Assembly (NCBI RefSeq): GCF_000400485.1
Contig: NZ_ASHR01000032.1
Location: 1-64,000, forward strand
Length of the DNA stretch: 64,000 nucleotides
Reading direction: 5' to 3'
From: Agrococcus pavilionensis RW1
GTDB lineage: Bacteria; Actinomycetota; Actinomycetes; Actinomycetales; Microbacteriaceae
Part shown: positions 42,718 through 45,515 of the stretch, one piece after another
Layout: each line of letters begins with the position of its first letter
How positions within the stretch are numbered: the stretch's first letter is position 1
Translations under genes and position numbers: made by a program
The notes under the pieces: generated by a model
Seen by the model: only the letters and a program-made list of their open reading frames with translations
Databases searched by the model: none
What the model was told of the DNA's origin: nothing

Positions 42718-44007
42718 TCACGCGGGGACGAGTGACGCGAGCATCGCCGCCGCCTTCACGTGCAGCTCATCGACCTCGAACGCCGGCTCGGAGAGCGCGG
42801 TCACTCCCCCGCCGACGCCGATGTGCGCGCCGTCTGCGTCGGCGACGACCGACCGGATGACCATCGCGAGCTGGCACGACTCCCCCGCGACGACCCCGAA
42901 GCATCCGCTGTACACGCCCCGCGGCGCGCCCTCGAGGCCCTGCAGCAGCTCGACCGTGCGGCGCTTGGGCGCGCCCGTCATCGAGCCCGCCGGGAAGAGC
43001 GCGCGCACCGCGTCGAGCGGGCCGAGGCCCGGCAGCAGCCGCGACCGCACGGTCGAGACGAGCTGGTGCACCGTCGGGTAGGTCTCGACCGCGAGCAGCC
43101 CCGCGACCTCGACCGAACCGGGCTCGGAGACGCGCTGCAGGTCGTTGCGGCACAGGTCGACGATCATGACGTTCTCGGCGCGCTCCTTCTCGCTCTCGAA
43201 GAGCTCGCGCGCGAGCGCGGCGTCGTCGTCGGCGCCGCGGCGGCGCGTGCCCTTGATGGGGCGAGTGGTCGCGACGCCGCCCTCGACGCGCAGGAAGGTC
43301 TCGGGGCTCGCGCTCGAGACGGTGACGCCGCCGATGCGCAGCAGCCCGCCGTGGTGCACGGGGCTCGCGGCCCGCAGCCGCGCGTGCGTCGCGACCATGT
43401 CGAGCGGCGGCGCCTCGATCGCGGTCGTGAGGCACAGCACGTACGAGTCGCCGTCGCGGATGTGCTCGCGGCAGCGCTCGACCTTCGCGGCGTAGCCGGC
43501 GTCGTCGTCGCGCCAGCGGAGGCTCGACGGGTCGATGCGCGCGCTCGAGGGCACGCGCGGCGCGGGCATCGCCGGGATCGCCCACGGCTCGCCGTCGCGC
43601 GACTGCAGCTGCGCCTCGCCGCCCGAGACGACGATCCACCGGTCGAGCAGCAGCCAGGCCGCCTCGGGGAAGCGCCCGGCCGGGGGCTGCAGCCCGAGCA
43701 TCCGCACACCGGCCTCGAACCCGAGCCAGCCGACCCACGCGCCGGGCGTCGCGGCGCGCGCGGCCTCGAGCGCCTCGAGCGCGTCGCCGTCCACCAGGCG
43801 GCCGTCGAGCGTCGCGCGACCATCCTCGACGAGCAGCACGTGCCAGCCCGTGCCGATGACGTGGTCGCCGCTCGAGGAGGAGTCGAGCCACACGACGTCG
43901 CCGCCGGCGGCCTCGAGCGCCGCGAAGGCCGACTCGGGCGTGACGTCGACGGGGAGCGACCAACGAGCGCCGAGGTGCGGCAGCAAGTGCGCAGAGGTCG
44001 CTGGCAT
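42718..44007 (-). CDS. pabB: aminodeoxychorismate synthase component I / anthranilate-synthase-like
   Basis: A 429-residue chorismate-utilising enzyme. The C-terminal chorismate-binding domain has SPETFLRVEGG, TRPIKGTRRRG, VDLCRNDL, FPAGSMTGAPK and GGGVTALSEPAFE. Pairing with an aminotransferase-IV gene favours PabB (folate) over TrpE. ATG 44007 is chosen because TAGGAT on the minus strand lies seven bases upstream; an in-frame ATG at 44016 is the alternative. No pabA glutaminase gene is in the window. Confidence 0.88.
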   Translation of the reverse strand: MPATSAHLLPHLGARWSLPVDVTPESAFAALEAAGGDVVWLDSSSSGDHVIGTGWHVLLVEDGRATLDGRLVDGDALEALEAARAATPGAWVGWLGFEAGVRMLGLQPPAGRFPEAAWLLLDRWIVVSGGEAQLQSRDGEPWAIPAMPAPRVPSSARIDPSSLRWRDDDAGYAAKVERCREHIRDGDSYVLCLTTAIEAPPLDMVATHARLRAASPVHHGGLLRIGGVTVSSASPETFLRVEGGVATTRPIKGTRRRGADDDAALARELFESEKERAENVMIVDLCRNDLQRVSEPGSVEVAGLLAVETYPTVHQLVSTVRSRLLPGLGPLDAVRALFPAGSMTGAPKRRTVELLQGLEGAPRGVYSGCFGVVAGESCQLAMVIRSVVADADGAHIGVGGGVTALSEPAFEVDELHVKAAAMLASLVPA

Positions 44008-44022
44008 AGGGTGCATCCTATG
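44007..44022. promoter_or_regulatory. overlapping divergent leaderless promoters of pabB and pabC
   Basis: The 18-base near-palindrome CATAGGGTGCATCCTATG (44005-44022) holds both start codons and both -10 boxes. TAGGGT (44007-44012) precedes the pabC ATG by seven bases. On the other strand TAGGAT (44015-44020) precedes the pabB ATG by seven bases. Each -10 overlaps the other gene's start codon. Confidence 0.65.
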
Positions 44023-44796
44023 AGCGCCGAGCAGCCCGTCCGCGCGTGGTCGGCGGGCGGCTTCGCGCCCGTCGACGAGCCGGTCGGGGCGACGATCGCC
44101 GCGGACTCGTGGCTCGTCGCCGACGGCCGCGTGCTCGCGTGGCAGCGGCACCAGCTGCGCTTCGCGGATGCGGTGGCGGAGGTCGGCGGGGATCGCCTCG
44201 ACGCGATGGCGGCCGTCAGGAGCGCCGTCGAGCTCGCGCCGGGCGAGGGCCGCTGGTCGCCGCGCGTCGACCTCACCCCGGCGGGCATCCGGCTGCGGAT
44301 GCGCCCGGCCCCCGCGCCGAGCGAGCGCGTCGAGGTCGTCACGGCCGCGCGCGACCCGCGGCGCGCGCCGCTGCGGAAGGGTCCCGACCTCGAGGCGCTC
44401 CAGGCGCTCCTGGAGGACGAGTCGGCGAGGGCCGGGCGCGAGGTCGAGCCGGTCCTGTGCTCGGACGGCGTCGTCGCCGAGGGCTCGCGGTCGGCGCTCC
44501 TGTGGTGGCAGGGCGGAGTCCTGCACGTGCCGGCCCCGCGCATCCCCCACATGGCCTCGGTGACCGCCGCCGTGATCGCCGAGCTCGCCCGCCTCGACGG
44601 CATCGAGCTGCGCCAGGTCGCCGCCCGCCCCGACGAGCTCGAGGGCGCCGAGGTGTGGCTCGCGAACGCGCTCCGCGGCATCCGCGGCGTCACGTCGTGG
44701 CACGGCGGCCCGGAGCTCGCGACCCCCTCCCGCGTCGACGCGTGGCGCGCGCGCCTCGACGCCCTCCGCATCCCGGCGACGGCGGCCCGCTCGTGA
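44020..44796 (+). CDS. pabC: class IV aminotransferase, probable aminodeoxychorismate lyase
   Basis: A 258-residue PLP fold-IV protein. The Lys in LRKGPDLEAL is a candidate Schiff-base residue, and DGVVAEGSRSALLWWQGGVLHVPAP matches the cofactor-phosphate region. It would convert aminodeoxychorismate to 4-aminobenzoate plus pyruvate for folate. It is divergent from pabB with 12 bases between start codons and overlaps the DedA gene by four bases. Some family signatures are weak, so the exact substrate is inference. Confidence 0.82.
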   Translation: MSAEQPVRAWSAGGFAPVDEPVGATIAADSWLVADGRVLAWQRHQLRFADAVAEVGGDRLDAMAAVRSAVELAPGEGRWSPRVDLTPAGIRLRMRPAPAPSERVEVVTAARDPRRAPLRKGPDLEALQALLEDESARAGREVEPVLCSDGVVAEGSRSALLWWQGGVLHVPAPRIPHMASVTAAVIAELARLDGIELRQVAARPDELEGAEVWLANALRGIRGVTSWHGGPELATPSRVDAWRARLDALRIPATAARS

Positions 44797-45515
44797 TCGA
44801 TGACGTCATCGACGTCGTGCTGGAGACCGTCGGATCGATCGACCCGTGGCTGCGCACCCTGCTGGCGTTCATCGCGATGGCGCTCGAGACGAGCGTGCTG
44901 CTCGGGCTGCTCGTGCCGGGCGACACCGTCGTCATCATCGCCGCCCTCGCGGTCGAGGAGTGGCCGTGGTGGCTCGCGCTCATCGCCGCGACGGTGCTCG
45001 GCGCGATCGCGGGCGAGTCGATCGGCTTCGCGATCGGCCGCTGGCTCGGCCCGCGGATCGATCGCTGGCTCGCGCGCCGCTGGCCGGCGGCGTCGAAGCG
45101 CTGGCGCCGCACCGAGCGCTACCTCGCGCGGCGCGGCGGCATCGCCATCTTCCTCTCGCGCTTCCTCCCCGTCGCGCACTCGCTCGTCCCGCTCATCGTC
45201 GGCGCCTCCCCCATGCCCTACCGGCGGTTCCTCGCCTGGACCCTCCCCGCGTGCATGCTGTGGGCGACGGCCTACGCGAGCGCGGGCTGGGCGGCCGGCG
45301 GCAGCTACCGCGAGCTCGCCGACGAGCTGCACGGCGCGGGCTACGTGCTCGTCGCCGTGATCGTCGCGTTCGTGCTCGCCGTCTGGGGCGTCAAGCAGCT
45401 CGTCTCGCGACTCGAGGCGCGGCACATGCGCGAGGACGACGAGGAGGAGCGCTCAGAGGAGGAGCGATCGGCCCGGGAGCGCTCGGCCCAGGAGCGCTCC
45501 GGCGAGGAGCGCTGA
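44793..45515 (+). CDS. DedA-family membrane protein with charged C-terminal repeats
   Basis: A 240-residue SNARE-associated (DedA/VTT) protein: about five membrane helices, with LLGLLVPGDTVVIIAAL near the start, AGESIGFAIGRWLG, and FLSRFLPVAHSLVPLIVGASPMPYRRF. The last 25 residues are repeats of E/R-E-R-S (45446-45512). Relatives translocate lipid carriers such as undecaprenyl phosphate. GTG overlaps the pabC stop (GTGA). Confidence 0.9.
   Translation: MIDDVIDVVLETVGSIDPWLRTLLAFIAMALETSVLLGLLVPGDTVVIIAALAVEEWPWWLALIAATVLGAIAGESIGFAIGRWLGPRIDRWLARRWPAASKRWRRTERYLARRGGIAIFLSRFLPVAHSLVPLIVGASPMPYRRFLAWTLPACMLWATAYASAGWAAGGSYRELADELHGAGYVLVAVIVAFVLAVWGVKQLVSRLEARHMREDDEEERSEEERSARERSAQERSGEER

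Follow-up and report, generated by a model that had tools for sequence, protein, structure and literature searches.

The window analysed here is a stretch of 64,000 nt from Agrococcus pavilionensis RW1, in which a pabB-like and a pabC-like gene diverge from start codons lying almost back to back (Table 1). The two predicted proteins match the chorismate-binding (PF00425) and class IV aminotransferase (PF01063) families clearly above the Pfam cut-offs, and their family assignments are firm; in the pabC-like protein, Lys120 lies within a KGPD motif that is invariant in all 12 aligned rows from the genus (12/12). The first-pass annotation had called the pair the folate-pathway genes pabB and pabC, which holds at the level of the Pfam families but less well for the exact names, as both proteins score under the curated NCBIfam cut-offs (283 vs. 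328 bits for pabB and 28.7 vs. 176.9 bits for pabC). The names, drawn from this sub-cut-off similarity and from the conserved neighbourhood, are to be taken as family-level designations, and the two enzymes probably belong to one vitamin pathway. Downstream, a gene for a VTT-domain membrane protein (window 44793-45515) has a possible GTG start that overlaps the stop codon of pabC, and because of this overlap it may be cotranscribed with pabC.

Both start codons are contained in positions 44005-44022 (CATAGGGTGCATCCTATG), the ATG of pabB as the complement of 44005-44007 on the minus strand and that of pabC at 44020-44022 on the plus strand, with 12 bases (44008-44019) between them. This confirms the earlier description of divergent starts 12 bases apart within an 18-base near-palindrome: eight of the nine base pairs are palindromic, the sole mismatch being 44011/44016. 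It had further been claimed that the -10 of each gene overlaps the start codon of the other, and this proved correct by exactly one base in each direction, since the predicted pabC -10 has its first T opposite the A of the pabB start codon, and the predicted pabB -10 likewise has its first T opposite the A of the pabC start codon. Both genes thus read TANNNT-N7-ATG. The interlocked motif, CATANNNTNNANNNTATG, occurs once in the 2.88-Mb genome, and its reversed control does not occur at all. A scan of 43700-44300 for two-hexamer sigma-70 sites returned none, which says little because the scan demands a -35. The 30 bases preceding each -10 on the pab sides contain no common TTGACA-like element, and the conserved columns in these bases double as coding sequence for the N-terminus of the opposite protein.

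Table 1. Coordinates of the genes and predicted promoter elements at the pabB-pabC locus, in window positions.
Feature	Position	Strand	Basis
pabB-like gene, 429 aa; chorismate-binding enzyme (aminodeoxychorismate synthase component I-like)	42718..44007	-	Translation; PF00425, E 3.3e-75; TIGR00553 best NCBIfam match, below cut-off
pabC-like gene, 258 aa; class IV aminotransferase (aminodeoxychorismate lyase-like)	44020..44796	+	Translation; PF01063, E 1.5e-17; alignment
Predicted interlocked dual leaderless promoter, CATANNNTNNANNNTATG	44005..44022	.	Start-to-start gap 12 bp; sequence, uniqueness in genome, 21/23 Agrococcus loci including its own
Predicted pabC -10, TAGGGT	44007..44012	+	7 nt before pabC ATG; TANNNT-N7-ATG in 23/23 Agrococcus loci
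Predicted pabB -10, TAGGAT	44015..44020	-	7 nt before pabB ATG; kept in 21/23 Agrococcus loci

A protein search that made no use of the motif found pabC in 23 of 24 genomes of the genus. At 21 of these 23 loci, the window's own included, CATANNNTNNANNNTATG lies between the two genes, each of which is in frame with it, and four of the 21 have a pabC that is only ~43% identical; the 18-mer core of Agrococcus lahaulensis is identical to the window's. Two loci depart from the pattern, L023 and L024, which have kept TANNNT-N7-ATG on the pabC side and lost the pabB side. Comparison among relatives thus supports the proposal that the two -10s are spaced as for leaderless mRNAs. At one locus (L011, genome G018) the reading frame of pabB is interrupted around codon 130, with two matches in different frames and an open frame of 280 aa, which could be either a real frameshift or a sequencing error.

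For a wider comparison among named genomes, the best 80 of 214 candidates from a pabC profile were taken and the 21 without a divergent pabB dropped, leaving 59 loci. The dual motif, with pabC in frame, is present at 45 of them and absent in that form from 14; the motif loci divide into 23 with a start-to-start gap of 11 bp (6-nt spacers) and 22 with a gap of 12 bp (7-nt spacers), with none at 10 or at 13-16. The same 59 loci were searched for start codons alone, with in-frame starts on both strands 4-30 bp apart and no -10 criterion, a search that also counted GTG or TTG start pairs at some loci. An ATG/ATG pair was found at 44 of the 59, at gap 11 in 23 and at gap 12 in 21, and every one of these 44 pairs has a TANNNT on both sides, although none had been asked for, with its first T paired to the A of the opposite ATG. 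In a tree built from the joined pabB and pabC proteins of all 59 loci, the states gap 11, gap 12 and other require at least 10 changes, one row (L181, whose motif ATG opens only a short frame) having been labelled gap 12 by hand. The motif rows alone (45, with L181 left out) require at least five changes between gap 11 and gap 12, so that the spacer has repeatedly changed by one base while the interlock was kept. On the same tree, pabB-pabC loci from metagenome-assembled genomes filed as Acidobacteria (L122) and Mucilaginibacter (L151) nest inside the Microbacteriaceae, and their contigs are probably misbinned. Of the family genomes, 103 have a match to the pabC profile, and the motif stands at pabC in at least 43 (at least 30 with gap 11, and 13 with gap 12).

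The motif was also counted without regard to gene content in 149 Microbacteriaceae genomes, against a reversed control with the same ten fixed bases at each gap. It had 85 matches vs. 17 for the control at gap 11 and 86 vs. 26 at gap 12, compared with 10 vs. 13 at gap 13; at gap 10 the control outnumbered the interlocked pattern (9 matches for the pattern vs. 26). A non-overlapping variant with a gap of 13 and 7-nt spacers (CATTANNNTNANNNTAATG) gave no motif match and one control match in these genomes, a rarity that may follow simply from its two additional fixed bases, which alone could explain it. The family counts are not independent, as the conserved matches collapse to four classes of gene pair. 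At gap 12, 75 of the 86 matches were listed and 72 of these were fetched, the remaining three being Agrococcus pab loci. Forty-six of the 72 fall in the four conserved classes, namely map with a small SPOR-like protein (30), pabB/pabC (10), upp with a deaminase (3), and a DUF255-thioredoxin protein with a metallo-beta-lactamase-fold protein (3), and most of the remaining 26 appear to be chance matches; two loci (L076 and L080) have map on one side only. At gap 11, 75 of the 85 matches were listed, 30 of them at pabC; of the 45 elsewhere, 39 were fetched together with one gap-13 match. Ten of these 39 belong to conserved classes (8 DUF255/metallo-beta-lactamase and 2 upp/deaminase), and at L225 the DUF255 gene has a different partner. 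Among the matches listed, the conserved pairs besides pabB/pabC therefore comprise 30 map/small SPOR-like, 11 DUF255-thioredoxin/metallo-beta-lactamase-fold and 5 upp/deaminase loci. In this sample, the pab, DUF255 and upp classes occur at both gaps and the map class only at 12. The map pair (30 loci, including L046) consists of a 57-80 aa protein divergent from a methionine aminopeptidase-like (Peptidase M24) gene at gap 12; the small protein often starts with a WYNxxTGxVExG-type sequence and, in L046, has a marginal SPOR match.

Beyond the family, a sample of 296 genomes from the phylum gave 179 motif and 118 control matches, a small excess. Among the 29 phylum loci examined there was no conserved pair class outside the family, and the one match to a known class came from the same family. 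At two loci from other actinobacterial families (L187 and L190), the motif lies between an 83-aa frame and a frame of 156-159 aa; the 83-aa frame resembles, by eye, a ribbon-helix-helix protein, and the cores carry CATATG at both ends.

Leaderless bacterial genes have been described as preceded by TANNNT at a distance of about 12 bp from the start (PMC3160421), and in the promoter analysis of Mycobacterium tuberculosis this hexamer is given as the dominant -10 box, with no -35 consensus (PMC3898074). The pab genes conform to this pattern, with 13 nt from the first T to the ATG on each side (12 or 13 in relatives). In order to place these distances among ordinary starts of the family, TANNNT was scored at offsets of 7-30 bases upstream of ATGs at 120 family loci and in the window, with interlocked sites masked; the loci are non-independent, and eight of them, pabC genes without the gap-12 motif (L097-L104), entered this pooled scan only. 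The hexamer occurred 60 times at 12 and 42 times at 13 bases, vs. 9-22 times at each of the 22 other offsets. No such peak was seen for ATC, ACG or CTG, and any rise for GTG was slight. The window alone, with the pab site masked, gives a thin signal (5 ATGs at 12, 1 at 13, and up to 3 elsewhere). Spacers of 6 or 7 nt thus appear to be typical of ordinary leaderless-type starts in the family, and two such starts, when interlocked, would lie 11 or 12 bp apart.

Taken together, these observations make it highly likely, as far as sequence comparison can carry the argument, that the pab locus is a minimal bidirectional promoter for the housekeeping sigma factor, giving rise to two leaderless mRNAs. 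Each promoter would consist essentially of its -10 TANNNT, placed 6 or 7 nt before the ATG at which transcription and translation would both begin, and sigma-A would presumably be the factor used. The interlock resides in the first T of one -10, the complement of the A with which the other gene's ATG begins; the TA of each hexamer is supplied by the T-A step before and at the opposite start, and the whole intergenic region would form one melted bubble whichever way polymerase faces. Start-to-start gaps of 11 and 12 bp fit this scheme because the working spacers would be 6 and 7 nt, and neither start could be GTG, which would destroy the -10 of the partner, so that ATG would be required at both. 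Each pab mRNA probably starts at its own ATG, given that TANNNT is the dominant box in M. tuberculosis and lies about 12 bp before leaderless starts. The likely outcome is weak basal expression in both directions, with little mutual exclusion.

The first-pass annotation had gone further, proposing that polymerase can occupy only one direction at a time and that transcription of the two genes is in consequence mutually exclusive. Where polymerase sites overlap, simultaneous binding is sterically unlikely, and to this extent the proposal is supported. By standard geometry, the region melted in an open complex would span approximately the same 13-14 bases for both orientations, so that polymerase could be oriented towards only one of the two genes at any moment, and single occupancy is plausible. 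A regulatory switch, in which mutual occlusion makes transcription of pabB and pabC exclusive in a way that the cell uses, would draw on this geometry of overlapping promoters with one shared bubble, and for E. coli bidirectional promoters it has been stated that overlapping sites sterically exclude simultaneous polymerase binding (PMC12825309). The same work, however, describes basal transcription at five such promoters as too low for competition, which set in on strong activation (PMC12825309), so single occupancy does not by itself imply mutually exclusive expression. Exclusion would presumably also be counter-productive for two enzymes that probably belong to one pathway, and the same layout serves other gene pairs. 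We regard a regulatory switch of this kind as improbable. By analogy with the E. coli promoters, two weak and roughly independent housekeeping promoters, possibly with mild coupling, are to be expected at the pab locus.

Another reading would take the hexamers TAGGGT and TAGGAT as Shine-Dalgarno-like sequences, with the promoters lying farther upstream inside the opposite genes. In the Agrococcus genome, AGGG and AGGA do indeed stand 8 nt before the ATGs. Across the 68 distinct cores, however, only 44 of 136 hexamers are TAGGNT, the others including TAGCCT, TACCCT and TAACCT, so that no Shine-Dalgarno sequence is conserved; moreover, all 44 start pairs from the search that did not ask for it have the final T, irrelevant to a site of this type, in both of their hexamers. 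The variety of the hexamers and their invariant final T led us to reject this reading, which we consider very unlikely.

The near-palindrome of 18 bp sits exactly where both genes start, as an operator for a dimeric regulator of folate genes might, and conservation of the palindrome in relatives had been suggested in the first-pass annotation as a check. As a palindrome, the 18-mer is unremarkable in this GC-rich window: 63 of 63,983 18-mers, 44005-44022 among them, are symmetric in at least eight of nine pairs, and part of its symmetry exists because two ATGs and two TANNNT boxes impose it. The inner three bases of the two boxes were therefore compared with shuffled partners across the loci of the conserved classes (68 distinct cores). 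They matched at 29 of 105 positions at the pab locus vs. a null mean of 31.2, and at 65 of 204 vs. 75.9 for all four pair classes, that is, no better than shuffles, and the dyad symmetry between half-sites expected of a palindromic operator has not been kept. In addition, the Agrococcus core variants CATACCCTGCATCCTATG and CATAAACTCGATCCTATG retain both TANNNT boxes and have lost the inner symmetry, and the same scaffold is found at gene pairs of differing function. The conserved signal is the two TANNNT boxes and their spacing, not the palindrome, and an operator, rejected on the shuffling result, is scarcely credible.

Chance, in the form of an AT-rich short spacer mimicking two -10 boxes, could be argued from a motif of just ten fixed bases, from the 26 control matches at gap 12 and from the many fetched matches that do not lie between two plausible genes, but at the pab locus it is contradicted by conservation at 21 of 23 genus loci and by the sharp 11/12 spacing of pabB-pabC across the family, and its probability is negligible. 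Its inheritance among relatives, and its recurrence at a small number of other housekeeping-type pairs in the family, give the tight arrangement the look of a genuine design, not of a palindrome that arose by chance. A stronger version of the bidirectional leaderless promoter is conceivable, although we hold it only tentatively and think it less probable than not: a distinct, selected promoter class with the start codons inside the partner's -10, ATG frozen at both starts, a gap of 11 or 12, and a shared bubble tying two housekeeping outputs together (at a fixed ratio or with lower noise), kept at four gene pairs and moving between the spacings in one-base steps.

Bidirectional promoters were reportedly first described in a 2021 Nature Microbiology paper. 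They have been defined as divergent start sites 7-25 bp apart with reciprocal overlap of key -10 and +1 positions (PMC10268837). If transcription starts at the ATGs, the predicted start sites of the pab locus (44007 and 44020) are 13 bp apart, with 12 or 13 bp across loci, and -10 and +1 overlap reciprocally on the predicted starts both here and at all 44 start pairs, so that by its predicted geometry the locus falls within this definition. As in the bacterial bidirectional promoters described, the same DNA would serve both directions (PMC12825309; PMC10268837). The common distances reported for E. coli are 18 (the commonest), 10 and 23 bp, with small variations (PMC12825309); the 12-13 bp predicted for pab is not among these values, which are not a strict requirement for a bidirectional promoter. 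Unlike the hexamers of shared -10 promoters, those of pab do not overlap each other; each overlaps the start codon of the other gene, and the products are predicted to be leaderless, whereas the words "leaderless" and "codon" are absent from the main text of the E. coli study (PMC12825309). A shared -10 does occur at pab loci of two other genera, Agreia (3/3) and Rathayibacter (2/3, the third locus yielding no architecture call), in the form of TAGCGTA, which reads TAGCGT one way and TACGCT the other. With spacers of 5-8 nt allowed, the predicted starts of these loci are 19-20 bp apart, and the arrangement thus resembles the shared -10 promoter of E. coli with its commonest distance of 18 bp (PMC12825309). 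The pabB start is GTG at all five of these loci, and that of pabC is GTG at four and ATG at one, in agreement with the notion that both starts are held at ATG in the interlocked but not in the shared form.

The locus also resembles the leaderless TANNNT genes of high-GC Actinobacteria, with the box about 12 bp before the start (PMC3160421; PMC3898074). It differs from them in that two such genes are interlocked back to back, and the word "divergent" was not found in the text of one of these sources (PMC3160421). Closely juxtaposed divergent promoters are called a common feature of M. tuberculosis, in a passage that gives no fixed spacing, start-codon overlap or conserved pair classes, unlike what is seen at pab (PMC3898074). 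Among the matches listed in a literature search, with subscription journals mostly outside its coverage, there were no start-codon-interlocked leaderless pairs. The 11/12 bp rule could aid start-codon annotation in the Microbacteriaceae and predicts promoters straight from sequence. The pab locus itself would offer a natural and very small system, in which one melted stretch serves two leaderless genes, for learning whether there is competition between the directions, whether noise falls with coupling, and by what route a start codon and a -10 box evolve when they have bases in common. Relative to known bidirectional promoters, what appears to be new is the predicted distance of 12-13 bp together with products predicted to be leaderless.
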